Virus record (IMG/VR): IMGVR_UViG_3300008516_000402
Span: 1-21,888 of that record
Length of the DNA: 21,888 nt
From: a virus
Strand: one strand, 5' to 3'
In this document: positions 181 through 19,741 of the stretch, one piece after another
How the letters are laid out: every line of letters begins with the position of its first letter
How positions within the stretch are numbered: position 1 is the first letter of the stretch
Translations under genes and position numbers: made by a program
Notes under the pieces: generated by a model
Told to the model about the DNA's origin: nothing
Databases searched by the model: none
What the model saw: the letters and a program-made list of their open reading frames with translations, nothing else

Positions 181-547
181 TGGTGGAGGCGGCGGGAATC
201 GAACCCGCGTCCGGTTGTGCTTCCACTGGCGGCTCTTCACGTGCGTGGTCGGTGTTCTGTGTCCGGCACGCCGACAAGCCTCTCGGGTTGCTTCCCCCGA
301 CTCCAGCCGGGTCTTTCCCCCGACAAGCCAGAGGTCTTTCCCTCAGCCAGCCGTAGTTCGTCCCGATCCCCGTTACGACGGCAACCTCACAGAGTCGGGG
401 GCTGCTCTAGGCAGCCATTGCGTGGGCACCGAAGTGCCCGTGCACCACCTTTTTGGCGGTTAGTGTTTGGTCGATTTTTGCGGGGCCTTCGACCAACCCC
501 GGCACGCACCGACAGTTTTCACACCCCGTCGATACCAATTCGCCCCC
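181..547 (-). ncRNA. ssrA: Transfer-messenger RNA (tmRNA)
   Basis: One-piece tmRNA of about 367 nt, which rescues stalled ribosomes and tags the unfinished protein. The 5' end GGGGGCG (547-541) pairs with CGCCUCC before an encoded ACCA (3' end at 181), giving a 7-bp acceptor stem with one G-U. The 5' hallmark GGTATCGACGGG and the T-arm GGACGCGGGTTCGATTCCCGC match the family. Pseudoknot PK1 is clear at 501-467: CGGGG/CCCCG interleaved with TTGGTCGA/TCGACCAA. The resume codon is GCC (457-455) after ACTAACC; the tag reads AKKVVHGHFGAHAMAA and stops at TAG (409-407), which sits in the loop of a GGCTGC/GCAGCC hairpin as in bacterial tmRNAs. A UUCG hairpin lies inside the tag frame (439-424). The 5' end is 10 bases after the stop of the preceding gene, so it is probably cut from a longer transcript. 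Confidence 0.96.
407..457 (-). other. tmRNA tag-peptide reading frame
   Basis: Sixteen sense codons from GCC to GCC, then TAG, encode AKKVVHGHFGAHAMAA. The C-terminal AMAA resembles the ALAA/AVAA degron read by ClpXP in bacteria. Codons 6-11 are built from a perfect 6-bp stem closed by a C(UUCG)G tetraloop (439-424). Confidence 0.9.
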
Positions 548-7678: not shown

Positions 7679-8640
7679 TATTGATCTCTCCGCTTGGCCG
7701 CACGCTCAAACGGCCGAAGGTACATGTCCGGCGATCCGAGAACCGACTTGAAGGCCAGCCCCTTACAGAATCGTAGGAAGCCCATCCTATCCACAAGCGG
7801 CTTCTCTGCAAGCCGCTTCTTGAGTCCCTTCGTCCCGCCGAAGGAATCGGTCATGTCGATCCCACGGATGACGTGGCCGAGCCGCTCAGCGTCGGCCACG
7901 ATGCTCGCCTCGAACTTACGGGGCTTCTGCTTCCGACCGAGGAGGTTGGCAAGGGTGTCCAGTTGCTTGAGCGGTTCGTCGGAGTTGAGGACACCCGCGT
8001 GCTCCTCGATCACCTGCACTGCTCGCTTCGGGCCGCAGCCGTCCGCGCCTTTGATTGAGTCAGACGGGTCCCCGACGAGCGCGCGGTACAGGACGTAGTG
8101 CTCCGGCCCGATCCCGACGTACTCCTCGAAGTTCTCCGCGTCCACCCAATGCTTACCGTTGAGAAACCAGACACGAGCGCCCATTCGGACCGTCTGCCAC
8201 ATGTCCCGGTCGCCCGACACAACGATGGGCGTGTCGCCACGGCGGGCAAAAAGCCGGACTGCGGCGGCAATACAGTCGTCGGCTTCGCGATCCTGATACG
8301 CAAGGCAGACCACACCGAGGAGTTCCAACATTTTCCTCGCCGTGTGAAGCTGTGCGAACGCTCTCTCCTTATCCTCGTCGGTGAGGAGCTTGCGCTTCTC
8401 CTTGCGTTCAGCCTTGTACTCGGGAATATGGTCCAGACGGTCCGAAGGGACCCCGTGATCGAAGAAGGCGTAGACACCGGCTGCATTCACGAGGGGAAGG
8501 GACAAGAACGACTTGAGCGAGCCGAGCGTCCCGTACACGCCACCGGTCCACAGGCCCCCGGCCTTGAGATCGTCGAGCGCCGAAGCCATGATGGCTCGGG
8601 TGATAAGGTTGTTAGCATCGACTAGAACAGGATTCAACAA
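7678..8640 (-). CDS. 5'-3' exonuclease / flap endonuclease (PIN-like, T5 D15 / Pol I N-terminal type)
   Basis: A 320-residue nuclease that would remove RNA primers and 5' flaps. Metal-binding acids fall in order: Asp8 (LVDANN), Asp61 (FFDHG), Glu119, Asp121 and Asp122 (READD), Asp144 and Asp146 (SGDRD), Asp191 and Asp194 (GDPSDSIKG). The last block opens the helix-three-turn-helix with GADGCGPKRA. Tyr75/Lys77/Arg79 fit the arch. The window's Pol I-type polymerase has no such N-terminal domain, so this gene supplies it separately. The start must be one of two adjacent TTG codons (8640 or 8637); AAGGA lies 8 bases upstream. They sit in one arm of a 13-bp palindrome. Confidence 0.93.
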   Translation of the reverse strand: MLNPVLVDANNLITRAIMASALDDLKAGGLWTGGVYGTLGSLKSFLSLPLVNAAGVYAFFDHGVPSDRLDHIPEYKAERKEKRKLLTDEDKERAFAQLHTARKMLELLGVVCLAYQDREADDCIAAAVRLFARRGDTPIVVSGDRDMWQTVRMGARVWFLNGKHWVDAENFEEYVGIGPEHYVLYRALVGDPSDSIKGADGCGPKRAVQVIEEHAGVLNSDEPLKQLDTLANLLGRKQKPRKFEASIVADAERLGHVIRGIDMTDSFGGTKGLKKRLAEKPLVDRMGFLRFCKGLAFKSVLGSPDMYLRPFERAAKRRDQ

Positions 8641-8998: not shown

Positions 8999-9970
8999 CT
9001 AGTCGTCGTCCGGCTTGTACTTCGCAGCAGCAGCCTTCACGAGGCACTCAAACCTCGCGTTGGTCCGGCACTTCGACTCGACGTCGGGGAGCATCCATGT
9101 GGTAAGGTCGCCCCTCGCACGCAGCGCGTATCCAAGCGCGCCCCGAAGTTCGTGATAGTCAACGGTGCCGACAGAATCCTCCTCTGCGTTGACGTAGTAA
9201 TACGCCATCTCAGCAAGCAGGGCGTTCTGCTCACGGAGCCCAAGCCGTACTCTGAGATTGGCGTCACGCTCCTTGCCTTTACGGCGCTTGGAATCCGAGA
9301 GGTCCGAGACCCTGCCCGCGCTCGCCATCACTTCTCTCGCAAGTTTGTTGATCTCCTTGGCAGTGATGCCGGGATGGAGGTCCTTCCTGATCTTCCTCTG
9401 CGTGTCGGCGTCGATCTTAGCAAGAGTGATCCCGGCATGGACGGAGAGGGACCCCTCGATCACACGAGCCCTGATATCTGCCGGAGCCCCGGCGAGAATG
9501 AGTGCCCGGCGAACGCGCATGGGCTCAACTGCCATCTTCGTAGAAATCGACTGGATTCCCCACCCGTCCTTTCGAGCACGCTTGGCAACGTCCCCGATCT
9601 CGATCATGTTCAGGTTGACCCGTCCGTCCTGTGAGTTCTCGGCGACCGCGAGGGCTTGTGCCTCCAACGCCGTTCGGATGTCCTCTCGGACGGTGACAGG
9701 AACCGTCTCCATGTTGAGGAGGCGCGCGACGCGGAGCCGTCTCTCACCAGCAATGAGGTCGAAGTGACCTCGCCGCCCACGCGTCGGTCTGACAAGGAGA
9801 GGTTGAAGGATTCCTTCCTTCTTGATGCTGGCCCGCAGCGTACTCAGGTCACCGGTGACTTGGCGAGGGTTATGCCCCTTGACGATCCGGACCCTGCGCG
9901 TCTCGACACGCGTGAGCGCACCGTCCTTTTCGCGGGGACCTTTGATCCCCGGCACGAGTGTAGCTCCCAT
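8999..9970 (-). CDS. ParB-like DNA-binding protein (second of a tandem pair)
   Basis: A 323-residue ParB/Spo0J-type protein. The ParB/Srx nucleotide-binding domain spans about 25-115, with HNPRQVTGDL at 33-42, GERRLRVA at 75-82 and AENSQDGR at 110-117; GERR and EN-x-x-R-like blocks form the CTP pocket in known ParBs. A helix-turn-helix follows at about 135-160 and the charged C-terminal helices end KYKPDDD. It is a clear paralogue of the gene at 10028-11149, matching it over most of its length but lacking the long lysine-rich N-terminal tail. No ParA ATPase is in the window, so classical partition is not demonstrated. GAGAGGAG precedes the ATG. Confidence 0.9.
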   Translation of the reverse strand: MGATLVPGIKGPREKDGALTRVETRRVRIVKGHNPRQVTGDLSTLRASIKKEGILQPLLVRPTRGRRGHFDLIAGERRLRVARLLNMETVPVTVREDIRTALEAQALAVAENSQDGRVNLNMIEIGDVAKRARKDGWGIQSISTKMAVEPMRVRRALILAGAPADIRARVIEGSLSVHAGITLAKIDADTQRKIRKDLHPGITAKEINKLAREVMASAGRVSDLSDSKRRKGKERDANLRVRLGLREQNALLAEMAYYYVNAEEDSVGTVDYHELRGALGYALRARGDLTTWMLPDVESKCRTNARFECLVKAAAAKYKPDDD

Positions 9971-10027: not shown

Positions 10028-11149
10028 CTAGTCCTCGTCGGGCTCGAACTTGACGGCGGCGGCCTTCACTCTGCTCTCGAACTTCGCGTTGATCGCAGCC
10101 GCAGCCTTCACGTTCTCCTCGACCTTCGGGTCGATATCGGGGAGTATCCACGAGGCAAGGTCACCCCGCGCCCACAGCATGAGCCCGAGCGCACCACGAA
10201 GCTCGTGGTAATCCGTGGTCCCGACCGCATCCTTGTCTGCGTTGACGTAGTAGTAAGCCGCCTCGGCCATCGCGGCGTTCTGCTCCCGCAGCCCGCGCCG
10301 GACCACGAGACTGGCGTTGCGCTCCTCCCCCTTGAGGCGCGTCGAGCCGGACGCGGACGCGCTGGCCCCGCCCTTCTCGGCTTGCTTCTTGGCGAGATCG
10401 TTGATCTCCTTGGCCGTGATGCCGGAGTGCAGCGACTTCTTGATCTTCTCGCGCGCCTTGGCGTCGAGCTTGCCGATGGCGATCCCCGCATGAACGGAGA
10501 GCGTGCCCTTCATGACCTGATTCTGGATGTTCTCGGGCGTCTTCATGAGTGTGAGGTACCGCCGGATACGCTCCGCGTACGTCCCCATCTCAGTAGCGAT
10601 CCTGCTGACACCCCACCCGGCCTTGGACGCCTCCATCACGACGCGGCCAACCTCAATCGCGTTGAGATTGTAACGGCCGTCCTCCGAGTTCTCCGCGACA
10701 GCCGTCGCCCGAGCCTGCAGGGCGGTGGTGATATCCTCGCGGATGATGACGGGTACCGTGGAGAACTTGAGAGCGCGAGCGACGCGGAGCCGCCGCTCAC
10801 CGGAGATCAGGTCGTAGTAACCCGGCTTCCCCTTGGTGGGTTTGACGAGGAGGCTCTGCACGATCCCGTTGGCCTTGATGTTAGCCGCCAGCGCGTCGAG
10901 ATCGCCCGTCACCTGACGCGGGTTGTGTCCCTTGACGATGAGGACCTTACTCGTCAAGATGCGCGTTGAGGTGCCTTCCTTCTTTCCGGAGCCCTTGACC
11001 CCCTCGATGGGCGTAGAGGACCCCTTGCTCGGAGTCTTCTTCGGAGGCGGGCTCTTCTTCGCCCCCGACTTCTTCTTCGCCCCCTTCTTGCTTGGAGACT
11101 TCTTCTTGCCCTTGCTCGGTCCCTTCTTCTGCTTCTTCTTCGCCGCCAT
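10028..11149 (-). CDS. ParB-like DNA-binding protein with lysine-rich N-terminal tail
   Basis: A 373-residue ParB-type protein, first gene after the promoter at 11235-11207. Residues 1-58 form a disordered Lys/Ser/Pro/Gly tail (24 or more Lys) like a histone H1 tail. The ParB domain covers about 65-160 with HNPRQVTGDL at 75-84, GERRLRVA at 117-124 and AENSEDGR at 152-159. The helix-turn-helix lies at about 178-202 (GWGVSRIATEMG). The C-terminal 120 residues (REQNAAMAEAAYYYVNAD, DYHELRGALG) match the downstream paralogue. Uses of phage ParB-like proteins include plasmid-prophage partition, genome condensation and transcription control; no ParA is present here, and no parS array was recognised. 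Confidence 0.92.
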   Translation of the reverse strand: MAAKKKQKKGPSKGKKKSPSKKGAKKKSGAKKSPPPKKTPSKGSSTPIEGVKGSGKKEGTSTRILTSKVLIVKGHNPRQVTGDLDALAANIKANGIVQSLLVKPTKGKPGYYDLISGERRLRVARALKFSTVPVIIREDITTALQARATAVAENSEDGRYNLNAIEVGRVVMEASKAGWGVSRIATEMGTYAERIRRYLTLMKTPENIQNQVMKGTLSVHAGIAIGKLDAKAREKIKKSLHSGITAKEINDLAKKQAEKGGASASASGSTRLKGEERNASLVVRRGLREQNAAMAEAAYYYVNADKDAVGTTDYHELRGALGLMLWARGDLASWILPDIDPKVEENVKAAAAINAKFESRVKAAAVKFEPDED

Positions 11150-15245: not shown

Positions 15246-15557
15246 TTACCAGTCGCAGTACCCGTGCTCCAGACAGATCGCACCGAAGACCGCGCCGACG
15301 GCGATGTCATAGAGTTCCTGCACTGCCTCGTCGTCCACCGGAGTCTCGATCCCCAAGGTAGTTTTGACCGACTGCCCGACGGTCTCCTTGTACTCGCAGA
15401 ACTCCTCGCGGATCACGCCTTCGATCTCGTGGGAACTGACGAGAGCACCGACTCCCTTCTCATCGAGCCTCTTCCGAAGCTCCTCCTGAAACCGGCGGAC
15501 GCCCATCTCGATATCGTGCTCCGATACCTTCGGCCGTACGTGCTTGTGTTTCGCCAT
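15246..15557 (-). CDS. Hypothetical protein (103 aa)
   Basis: Not recognised. I start it at the ATG overlapping the metallo-beta-lactamase gene stop (TGATG), preceded by GGAGAG. It is mainly helical, basic at the N-terminus (MAKHKHVRPKVSEHDIEMG) and more hydrophobic at the C-terminus (YDIAVGAVFGAICLEHGYCDW). The last helix is too short and too polar to call a membrane segment with confidence. Confidence 0.72.
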   Translation of the reverse strand: MAKHKHVRPKVSEHDIEMGVRRFQEELRKRLDEKGVGALVSSHEIEGVIREEFCEYKETVGQSVKTTLGIETPVDDEAVQELYDIAVGAVFGAICLEHGYCDW

Positions 15558-16426
15558 CACATCTCTCCGTACCCGAACACCTGCCCCTTCTGTACGAACC
15601 CGGAGAAGCCGTCGGCTTCCGCATCCTGTTTCGGGTTCGGCTGATAGTGCATGAGCCACATCTTCTCGCGCGTCTCCTCGGAAAGCGTAAGGAGATCGCT
15701 GTAGTGCGCGTGGACCCTCGACTTGAATGGAGCCGTCTCGCAGTCTTGGAAGATCACGTCGGCCTTGTCATAGAAGTGCTGAATCTGATTCGGGCAGAAC
15801 TGCGTGTCGCCCGTATAGAAGATCGTCGGGTGCGGCGGATCGTCAGCGTATTTCCTCGGGGCCGTCATCATGAGCCCGTAACTGTGCACGATGCTGTACC
15901 CGCTCATGACGTGGACCGTCTGCACCGGCTGGAGGTTGATCCCCTCCCACGTGAACTCCTCGTTCGCCTTCAGGGGCACGCAATCGAAGTAGTCAGTGAG
16001 CGTCATCTGCTTGCCTTCGATGGACTCCAGCCCGCCGCGAAGGCTGCACTCCCACAGGCGGCGCATGAGGTCCTCGTTGGCCCACAGCTTCGGCCGCCAG
16101 TTGAACGGCACGTCCTTGTGGAATAGCTCAGCGCCGGGGATCGACCAGTCCACCTTCGGCGAGAAGTATGTCATGAAGGCGAGCCACTCCAGACCGCCGA
16201 TGTGGTCAGCGTGGAGGTGACTGATGTACACGCCGTCGATGGTGTCAAGGTACGTCGGGACCTTCGACGGGATCGGGGATCGGGCGAACGCCTCGGGCAA
16301 CGCGAAGCGCGCGTCCGAGCCGCAGTCGATCAGGAGACGACGCGAGTTCTTCTCGACAATCGCCATCGTCTGATAGTAGTCCGGGCTCGTGAAGGCCGAG
16401 CCGCACCCCGCGAATACGATGTCCAT
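15557..16426 (-). CDS. Metallo-beta-lactamase-fold hydrolase, RNase Z-like
   Basis: A 289-residue MBL-fold phosphodiesterase. The N-terminus MDIVFAGCGSAF matches the RNase Z strand-loop; the metal motif SHLHADHIGG (HxHxDH) lies at about 80-86, a second-site His in TVHVMSG near 171-173, GDT near 208-210 and HYSD near 242-245. These are the conserved metal ligands of the RNase Z/ElaC group. Possible substrates are tRNA 3' ends or cyclic nucleotides; some phage MBL enzymes of this type (Apyc1) degrade cyclic pyrimidine signals of Pycsar immunity. The sequence alone does not choose. The start at 16426 overlaps the upstream stop (TAATG). Confidence 0.88.
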   Translation of the reverse strand: MDIVFAGCGSAFTSPDYYQTMAIVEKNSRRLLIDCGSDARFALPEAFARSPIPSKVPTYLDTIDGVYISHLHADHIGGLEWLAFMTYFSPKVDWSIPGAELFHKDVPFNWRPKLWANEDLMRRLWECSLRGGLESIEGKQMTLTDYFDCVPLKANEEFTWEGINLQPVQTVHVMSGYSIVHSYGLMMTAPRKYADDPPHPTIFYTGDTQFCPNQIQHFYDKADVIFQDCETAPFKSRVHAHYSDLLTLSEETREKMWLMHYQPNPKQDAEADGFSGFVQKGQVFGYGEM

Positions 16427-16656
16427 TACTTCCGCTCCTCCTCGACTTTGATATCGAGCCACGGACCGTTCGGGTCCTTGCTCGCCCTGATGGTGATTAC
16501 CTGCGGGACGGCCTTGTCAGGCTTGCGTAGGGTGATCGTCTCATCATCCCGTGTACCGGTCGCCGAGACAACCTCCGCACCCATCGGCGTGGCGAGGTCC
16601 ACTGCAGCCTCAGCCAACCGCCGCACCTGCGCCAGCGAGTCGCCCGTGATAATCAT
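16426..16656 (-). CDS. Hypothetical protein (76 aa)
   Basis: Not recognised. It starts MIITGDSLAQVRRLAEAAVDL behind GGAGG at 4 bases; the longer in-frame start lies inside the polymerase gene and is rejected. The sequence suggests an alpha-beta-beta-beta mini-fold ending in a charged tail. The palindrome at 16668-16682 lies in the 28-base gap between it and the polymerase stop, so it is a candidate for regulation through that site. Confidence 0.72.
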   Translation of the reverse strand: MIITGDSLAQVRRLAEAAVDLATPMGAEVVSATGTRDDETITLRKPDKAVPQVITIRASKDPNGPWLDIKVEEERK

Positions 16657-16684: not shown

Positions 16685-19600
16685 TTACGCCGCCGCCTTG
16701 TACGCCATGAGTTCCCAAAGCTCATCCGTGTTGACCGGATCGCGGACGGGCTTGCCCTCTTCGTCGAAGAGTTCCTCGTCAGACTCGTTCTCCTCGGTCA
16801 CAACCGTCGGGTCGAACCCGACCAACTGACCCCATGAGACACCCATCTCACAGTCCGCGACGATGGGGACCTTGAGCCAGTCCCACTCGATTCCCGGTAG
16901 GACCTGATCGGAGAGTTCCGGGAGATTCTCCATCACCTCCTTGGCGAGGGACGCGATCTCCATCACCTCGTCAACGTGACAGTCGAAGACGATGTTGTCA
17001 TGGACAGTGAGAATCATCTTGGACCTGTATTCGCGCTCGCGCATCTCAGCGTTGATGAGGACCAGAGCCATGAGAGTCATGTCCGACGCACCGCACTGGA
17101 TCGGGGCGTTGACGCTCTGACGAAGCGCCCTCGATCTGATCTCACGGTCGTCGCTGAATGCCTCGGGGACCCGGCGCTTGCGGCCGGTGAAGGACTCGAC
17201 GAAGCCATCGCGTTGAACCTGCTGCTGCAGCCGGTCAATCGCGAGCCTGAGAGCCGGACGGACAGCGTAGAACGCCTCGATGAGGTCCGCCCCCTCCTCG
17301 AAGGTGATGAAGATGCCATCTTTCTTGAGCGTCGTCATGAGAGCGGCCGGGCCACCCTGATAGAGCACGCCGAAGTTGACCCGCTTCGCTCGCGTACGCT
17401 TCTTGTACTGGTCATCGTCAGGGAGCGCTAGGTACTCCGTCTTGCTCAGCCCCTCGCTCGTCTGCGCGACGTCGATTGCTGTGAGCGTGTGGAGGTCCTC
17501 ACCGTTCTGGTACGCCTCGATCATCGTGGGCTCGTTGAAGTACGACGCGGCGATCCGAAGCTCGATCTGCGAATAGTCAAGCTGGAGGATCACGCCCTCG
17601 TCGCCGAACCGAGAGACGTAGGCACGCTTCACCTTCCCCGCGTCCTTGTTCGGGATGTTCTGGAGGTTGGGCTCACGCGAAGCGAGGCGGCCGGTCACCG
17701 TGCCGTGGATCAGGTACGTGCCGTGGACGCGGCCGTCCACATCGAGAAGGTCTCGAAGAGGAGCAATGAAGGTCCCGTGAAGCGTCTCTGCCTCGCGGTA
17801 CTTGAGGATCAGCGGCGCGAGATCGTTGCCCTTCCGTTCGTAATCGTGGAGCACGTCCGCCTTCGTCGTGAAGAACTCCCACTCCTTCTTCTCGACGGAC
17901 GCATTGACTATCTCCGAGAAGCTGACCTCCGGCTCGCCCCTCTTCCTCCGGGTCTCGTTGCGTTGCTTGAGCCGGGCGGCCAGTCGCGAGAATCCCGTGT
18001 CCGTCATCTCTATCGGACGGAGGTCGTAGTAATCGAAGAGGACCTTCCGAAGTTGAGTCGGGCTGCCGGGGTTGAAGTCAAACGTCACGACCTTGTTGCG
18101 AGCCTTCTCCGTTTTCATCTTGGCCCGCTTCGCCTTCTCCGTCGCTATCGTGTCAGCGACGAACTGACGGACCTTCGGGAGCTTGGCGATCTGCGACGAG
18201 AAGTCCTCCATCTTCGCAGTGTATTCTTCATCGAGAGCGGCCACGATATCAGCGTCCACCATCGCGCCAGTGTACTCAAGGTCTGCAAGCTGCTCAGAGA
18301 GCACCGGCAGGAAATGCTCGGCAAGCGCTTGGAGCTTCTCGCTGTTGACGTACTCGGGTTCCTCACGGATGCCGTTGTAGACCCGGAGCGTGACGTCGGC
18401 GTCCATCCCCGCGTACGGGAAGAGAAGCGAAGCCGGGATGTTCGCATAGGAGCCGCCGTTGTCAGGGTTGGCCGCTCTGTTGTTGGCGATGAAGTCCTCA
18501 AGCTCCTTCTCGTAACCGCCCATGCCCGTGTACGCGAAGGCCAGCACCTTGAGCCCGTGCGTGCCCCGCCGCTCGTCGATCACCAGATGCGTGGTCATCG
18601 TATCGAAGACGTTGGTAGGCTCAACGCCAAGGGCGTGCCGGATGTGCTGACGGTCGAACTTCTCGTTCTGCGCGACCTTCGGAAGGTCCTCATCGAGAAA
18701 GAAGTTGCGGAGCGCCTTCGTGATCCGCACGCGGTCCTTCTTCTTCGGGCCACCTTCCCGCCACGGAGATTCCGCATGATCGAACGGGACGGTGTACCCG
18801 ACGCCCTCCTCATTTGAGAAGGAGAAGCAGAGGAGCTTGGGGAACTCGTCTTGGAACGGCGTCAGTGATCCGGTCTCTGTATCGAAGGCAACAGGATCGC
18901 CGTCCGCCCGAAACGCGTCGAGAAGATCGCACACATCATCCGCGTCATCGAGGACGTAGTATTCGCCCTTCCCCATCGGTGGCGTGTACTCCCCCGATAT
19001 ATAGTCAGCCGCGTGACAGATGGCCTTCCCAAACTTCTCCGTCGTCTCGTCCATCTTCATGCGGTTGACATAGCTCGGGTGCATACAGGCGAGGACGTCG
19101 AGGTCTTCGAGTCCGGGGAGCGTCGATTTGAGGAACTTGTCATGGAACGTAAGGATGCCCGTGTGCCCGGTCACCGCTTCGAGAGCCGGACCACCGAGGA
19201 TCACGACGAGCTTGGGCTTGCGAGCTTTGATCTCCCGCACGAGTTGATAGATGCAGGACCGCACTTCGGTCTTGCCGGGGTTGCGGTTCCTCGGCGGCCG
19301 ACAGCGACAGATGTTGGTGTAGGCCACGTCCTTGCTCGGCTTGAGACCGACCTGTGGGAAGATGTCCTCAACGAACTGACGGACGAGTCTTCCCGCTTCG
19401 CCGATGAACGCCTCGCCGTTTGTATCCTCCGTCGCACCGGGAGCCTCGCCGACGAATAGGACCTCGACGTGCTTGTACTTGCTCTCGACGCGACGGCTCT
19501 TGACGACGTGCTTGTCTTCCTTGGCGAGGATTTTATCGGCGTCCCTCCCGAAGAGGGGCCGGAGCTTCTCGAAGTCCCTGCTGTACGGCAAGAGCGGGCA

Positions 19601-19741
19601 CCAGAGGCACCCGCTCTTCGGCTCGTCGGGGGCGGGCTCGACCAGCGGTCGGTCCGCCACGATGATACCGTTCTCAGTCTTGATCTTGGTAGGAATCCGT
19701 GTGTTGACGGGTTCCTTCGTTGTCTTCTTCGGAGCGACCAT
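16685..19741 (-). CDS. Fusion of uracil-DNA glycosylase and family A DNA polymerase
   Basis: A 1018-residue replicative polymerase. Residues about 40-250 form a family-4-type uracil-DNA glycosylase: CLWC at 45-48 with Cys147 and Cys163 as the four 4Fe-4S ligands, GEAPGATED at 99-107, the NICRCRPPRNRNPGKTE block at 143-159, and HPSYVNR at 221-227. The 3'-5' exonuclease covers about 260-465 with Asp287/Glu289 (FDTET), Asp381 and YAGMDAD at 443-449. The polymerase domain covers about 470-975: TVTGRL at 681-686, PNLQNIP at 691-697, motif A LDYSQIELR at 721-729, motif B KRTRAKRVNFGVLYQ at 781-795, motif C VHDN at 913-916 (usually VHDE). The 5' nuclease is a separate gene. GAGGAAGT precedes the ATG. 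A similar fusion is known in SPO1-type phages. Confidence 0.96.
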   Translation of the reverse strand: MVAPKKTTKEPVNTRIPTKIKTENGIIVADRPLVEPAPDEPKSGCLWCPLLPYSRDFEKLRPLFGRDADKILAKEDKHVVKSRRVESKYKHVEVLFVGEAPGATEDTNGEAFIGEAGRLVRQFVEDIFPQVGLKPSKDVAYTNICRCRPPRNRNPGKTEVRSCIYQLVREIKARKPKLVVILGGPALEAVTGHTGILTFHDKFLKSTLPGLEDLDVLACMHPSYVNRMKMDETTEKFGKAICHAADYISGEYTPPMGKGEYYVLDDADDVCDLLDAFRADGDPVAFDTETGSLTPFQDEFPKLLCFSFSNEEGVGYTVPFDHAESPWREGGPKKKDRVRITKALRNFFLDEDLPKVAQNEKFDRQHIRHALGVEPTNVFDTMTTHLVIDERRGTHGLKVLAFAYTGMGGYEKELEDFIANNRAANPDNGGSYANIPASLLFPYAGMDADVTLRVYNGIREEPEYVNSEKLQALAEHFLPVLSEQLADLEYTGAMVDADIVAALDEEYTAKMEDFSSQIAKLPKVRQFVADTIATEKAKRAKMKTEKARNKVVTFDFNPGSPTQLRKVLFDYYDLRPIEMTDTGFSRLAARLKQRNETRRKRGEPEVSFSEIVNASVEKKEWEFFTTKADVLHDYERKGNDLAPLILKYREAETLHGTFIAPLRDLLDVDGRVHGTYLIHGTVTGRLASREPNLQNIPNKDAGKVKRAYVSRFGDEGVILQLDYSQIELRIAASYFNEPTMIEAYQNGEDLHTLTAIDVAQTSEGLSKTEYLALPDDDQYKKRTRAKRVNFGVLYQGGPAALMTTLKKDGIFITFEEGADLIEAFYAVRPALRLAIDRLQQQVQRDGFVESFTGRKRRVPEAFSDDREIRSRALRQSVNAPIQCGASDMTLMALVLINAEMREREYRSKMILTVHDNIVFDCHVDEVMEIASLAKEVMENLPELSDQVLPGIEWDWLKVPIVADCEMGVSWGQLVGFDPTVVTEENESDEELFDEEGKPVRDPVNTDELWELMAYKAAA

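Follow-up and report, generated by a model that had tools for sequence, protein, structure and literature searches.

A probably functional one-piece tmRNA gene within a tailed-phage operon, with a shortened allele in a sister phage

In this study, we characterized a tmRNA gene in a virus record whose entire 21,888 bases form the stretch analysed here (the window), a fragment of a tailed-phage genome. ARAGORN made a single prediction in the window, a one-piece tmRNA (ssrA) of 367 nt at exactly 181-547 on the minus strand, which also carries the tmRNA parts and the two upstream genes located below, with the tag AKKVVHGHFGAHAMAA*. The Rfam covariance model RF00023 matched the same interval over its full length (model positions 1-374) at 112.1 bits, the gathering score being 47 bits, and the E-value of 1.9e-43 excludes a match by chance. 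An earlier note on this DNA had proposed a tmRNA with all hallmarks in a phage replication region and had suggested a covariance search; both programs return the gene at this position, and the hallmarks it named, GGTATCGACGGG, an encoded CCA, the acceptor stem, PK1, the resume codon and a tag frame, were all found.

The base pairs of the acceptor stem, T arm, P2, PK1 and helix 5 were checked one by one. The acceptor stem joins GGGGGCG (tmRNA 1-7; 541-547) to CGCCTCC (tmRNA 357-363; 185-191) in seven of seven pairs, including G3-U361, and ends in an encoded CCA (181-183) seen both in the RF00023 match and in the sequence. A G3-U pair at this third position has been reported to be completely conserved and to act as the alanine identity determinant (PMC3985003). 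The T arm (tmRNA 340-356; 192-208) has five of five standard stem pairs, its outer pair being G-C, and the P2 connector helix pairs GTGCGTG (tmRNA 39-45; 503-509) with CACGCAC (tmRNA 301-307; 241-247) at all seven positions. Upstream of the resume codon, pseudoknot PK1 (tmRNA 47-81; 467-501) consists of CGGGG/CCCCG and UUGGUCGA/UCGACCAA, with 5 + 8 pairs, all standard. The resume codon GCC is preceded by UAACC, in which U occupies position -5 and A position -4; their E. coli equivalents are U85 and A86, and it is mainly A86 that sets the resume frame (PMC2481249). Helix 5 (GGCUGC/GCAGCC, six of six pairs; tmRNA 132-148; 400-416) holds the UAG stop in its loop. For PK2-PK4, a scan of the GC-rich mid-region for simple H-type pseudoknots, which overlooked PK1 as well, gave a best candidate in the window that was matched by 43 of 100 shuffles.

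The tag frame runs from the GCC to the UAG at 407-457, as given by ARAGORN and by translation. Its product AKKVVHGHFGAHAMAA has 16 residues, the most frequent tmRNA tag length being 10 (PMC11915505), carries a net charge of +2 and three histidines, and starts AKK, without the usual AND/ANN start. In viral contigs with a common 27-nt tail pattern, 32 distinct tags are predicted, most of which start with AN and most of which are neutral or acidic. The -AMAA end is conventional and is also found in the viral tag ANNDNYAYAMAA and in AEDNFAMAA of Ignavibacteria. The earlier note did not recognize the tag; within viral contigs it is indeed unfamiliar, since a degenerate tag pattern searched against 2.9 million of them, rather than against the complete 97,179-sequence tmRNA database, retrieved the sister contig only. 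By itself, a new tag sequence is ordinary. The frame also contains a 6-bp UUCG hairpin, GGGCAC-UUCG-GUGCCC (tmRNA 109-124; 424-439), established by pair check; perfect hairpins of this kind occur twice in the window, against 0.055 expected from mononucleotide shuffles. Read on the opposite strand (419-444, plus), the tag hairpin followed by a T-rich run resembles a terminator, a site that may be due to chance, as shuffles expect 1.6 in the region. Unusually long tags also make up a family elsewhere, in the viral contigs L169 (5215-5622) and L193 (7984-8393), whose predicted tags of 30 and 18 residues have EADAILAQFG in common and end in (V/M)AA.

The neighbours of the tmRNA are phage replication genes, in keeping with the setting proposed at the outset. 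Directly upstream, a 168-aa ORF without a family match (558-1064) stops 10 bases before the tmRNA, exactly the spacing behind a phage protein gene that had been claimed, and is itself preceded by a gene for an SbcD-like nuclease subunit (1198-2199; PHROG 100, E 1.4e-45). The window further encodes a UvsX/RecA-like recombinase, SSB, two ParB-like proteins, an exonuclease, a Dda-like helicase and a family A DNA polymerase. On the tmRNA strand, a promoter scan detected nothing promoter-like immediately ahead of the gene. Directly downstream of the CCA, at 143-178, lie two tandem 18-nt copies of the TTTAG...CTAAA type, possible processing or termination hairpins, of which the sister has a diverged version. 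Beyond the tmRNA, the sister contig continues with an SbcC-like gene, a PDDEXK nuclease, a terminase-like gene (weak TerL match) and a T4-like portal gene. With SbcD on one side and SbcC, the weak TerL match and the portal on the other, the tmRNA is part of a tailed-phage genome; its place is the sbcD-sbcC interval, shortly ahead of the terminase and portal genes.

The sister phages, G001 and G013, are two IMG/VR contigs from one sample. Large blocks of G001 are 100% and 98% identical to the window, and G013 shares with it an identical block of 2,047 bp before extending beyond the tmRNA. The tmRNA allele of G013 is 284 nt long, scores 108.1 bits with RF00023 and is 83 nt shorter overall: by alignment, 84 nt are missing from its pseudoknot region behind the tag (tmRNA 153-236; 312-395 in the window) and one base has been gained, with the acceptor stem, PK1 and the tag all kept. 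Such a loss would be tolerable in principle, because E. coli tmRNA has been reported to do without its last three pseudoknots in vitro (PMC3985003). The H-type scan, blind to PK1, which was checked by hand, found shuffles as good as the best candidate of this allele in 10 of 100 cases. Seven substitutions separate the two alleles within the gene, and two of them jointly turn the outer T-stem pair from G-C into U-A. This compensated change, a single event between two alleles, suggests that the tRNA-like end is under selection. The identity between window and G013 runs from base 2442 down to base 396, where divergence starts; an assembly strain switch could therefore have made one of the two allele junctions. 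Relative to G001 and G013, identity changes abruptly from 100% to about 88-93% or back, with indels, at 7680-8065, 396 and 2443-2569, which reflects either strain recombination or assembly switching.

In four further contigs (G002, G006, G008 and G010), much of the order of replication and packaging genes is the same. In G002 and G006, sbcD and sbcC nearly adjoin with no tmRNA between them, and the short gap in G010 contains none either. G008, which belongs to the same group (PolA 53%, TerL 60%), also carries a one-piece tmRNA; it is found at a separate locus, encodes the tag ANPFAQQSRVAA, and has little sequence similarity to the window tmRNA beyond the conserved ends. Among 17 further relatives found through TerL, no tmRNA match exceeded the cut-off, and searches with SbcD and the helicase across viral contigs returned the two sister contigs only. 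The related contigs are fragments or of unknown completeness, hence tmRNA absence from them is soft evidence. As most relatives are without a tmRNA and G008 has a different one elsewhere, the gene looks like accessory cargo that was probably acquired at least twice. The earlier note had also proposed looking for smpB in the rest of the genome; an SmpB model found none in the window, the one sister screened (G001) or the relatives, records that are fragmentary or of unknown completeness. Given this result, the phage tmRNA probably relies on the SmpB of its host.

Searches for close relatives of the RNA itself gave little. Against 50,697 phage records, BLAST returned no match spanning 80% of the query, those listed being short and at the 3′ end, and a plasmid search yielded a single 32-nt match, also at the 3′ end. 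The rare 5′ motif GGGGNNGANNTGGTATCGACGGG occurs in only five stretches among 84,980 species genomes, four of which are tmRNAs of Ignavibacteria, Verrucomicrobia and Bacteroidia; we name no donor host from this motif, because the matching bacterial tmRNAs are otherwise dissimilar.

With bacterial one-piece tmRNA (ssrA, RF00023), the window gene shares its 367-nt length, the TLD, G3-U, PK1, the resume codon, the stop in the helix 5 loop and CCA. It differs in its location in a phage operon, its 16-residue tag and the extra UUCG hairpin within that tag, and it has GGUAUCGAC where the RF00023 consensus reads GGaUUCGAC. Carriage of a tmRNA gene by a tailed phage is familiar from the mycobacteriophages Bxz1 and Wildcat and Bacillus phage G, the early examples (PMC4131195), and from OM43 phage Melnitz (PMC9004378). 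The Melnitz tmRNA shares its operon with a transcription coactivator (PMC9004378), and co-oriented phage genes likewise surround the window tmRNA, which, unlike that of Melnitz, is one-piece. In Wildcat, the tmRNA is the most highly expressed lytic gene (PMC7474061), and some huge phages carry both tmRNA and SmpB (PMC7162821). The remark in the earlier note that few phage tmRNAs are described is too strong: a 2022 survey found them in 402 of 18,146 phage genomes (2.3%), with 133 unique structures (PMC9004378), a curated database listed 79 unique phage tmRNA sequences in 2025 (PMC11915505), and the 27-nt tail pattern by itself retrieves 38 ARAGORN tmRNAs in viral contigs. The gene described here is thus one more well-supported phage tmRNA and leaves the understanding of trans-translation unchanged. 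What it adds is an allelic pair, long and naturally shortened at one locus in close sisters, which constitutes a small natural experiment on what a phage tmRNA needs, and a patchy occurrence among relatives, in line with tmRNA having been acquired repeatedly as translation cargo.

Judged from its sequence, 181-547 is a complete tmRNA within a phage operon and is probably working. The gene, its structure, its phage context, the compensated structural change and its sporadic presence in the phage group lead us to favour, with fair assurance, a functional phage-borne ssrA that would draw on the SmpB, AlaRS, EF-Tu and proteases of its host to add rescue capacity during infection. Its RNA would probably be transcribed together with the replication operon, and host tRNA-processing enzymes could plausibly trim it out of the polycistronic transcript, as the earlier note had supposed. 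Host AlaRS would then charge it with alanine via the G3-U pair, and host SmpB and EF-Tu would bind the charged molecule. As in ordinary trans-translation, a stalled ribosome would restart at GCC, append the tag ending in -AMAA and stop at UAG. With broken mRNAs becoming more abundant during infection, the phage would likely benefit from added ribosome rescue and from having truncated proteins cleared by the host's proteases.

A less active role is conceivable, in which a bacterial ssrA was acquired and retained by chance as passive cargo with little function. The sporadic distribution would suit this, with the sbcD-sbcC gap of G006 and G010 and nearly all relatives searched lacking a tmRNA, as would the 84 nt lost from one allele. 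However, the core elements are unbroken in both alleles and the T-stem substitution is compensated; PK1 and the tag are also identical across both contigs, although the identical 2,047-bp block limits the weight of that identity. We therefore consider passive carriage unlikely. A host origin, with an ssrA gene lying where a prophage joins host DNA or brought into the contig by misassembly, has the precedent that tmRNA genes are frequent integration sites of genomic islands (PMC11915505), but the sister contig has phage genes on either flank, distinct alleles occupy the same place in two contigs, and no integrase was present among the proteins searched, which makes a scar or contamination extremely improbable.

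The unusual tag invites two other readings. In one, the phage tmRNA would interfere with the host, competing for SmpB or AlaRS, damping or redirecting host trans-translation, or marking host proteins differently. The TLD-only phage form DS6A has been reported as inhibitory to tmRNA (PMC11915505; PMC4131195), selective tagging of host proteins has been suggested for phage Melnitz (PMC9004378), and the tag found here is atypical, basic and His-rich. Unlike DS6A, however, the window encodes a complete tmRNA with a resume codon, a stop and an AMAA end, and no feature indicates inhibition, so that we regard interference as quite unlikely. In the other, the tag would be reprogrammed, its basic His-rich body and UUCG hairpin altering recognition or slowing tag translation and thereby redirecting the fate of tagged proteins instead of merely adding rescue. 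A reprogrammed tag seems to us very doubtful. The missing AND/ANN start, the +2 charge, the three histidines and the stable hairpin might, for their part, weaken tagging or degradation, and so count against the favoured functional reading.

Apart from the tmRNA, several genes of the window deserve mention. The family A DNA polymerase (16685-19741, minus) has 1018 residues and combines an N-terminal uracil-DNA-glycosylase superfamily domain and a 3′-5′ exonuclease in one protein. A metallo-beta-lactamase-fold protein (15557-16462, minus) matches the Pfam family Anti-Pycsar_Apyc1 (PF23023) at 94 bits, with a cut-off of 50, and had no match in PADLOC; by this domain assignment it is a candidate counter-defence phosphodiesterase against cyclic-nucleotide defence. 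The two ParB-like proteins are encoded by neighbouring paralogues (8999-9970 and 10028-11149, minus) with a DNA identity of about 66.6%, probably a tandem duplication.
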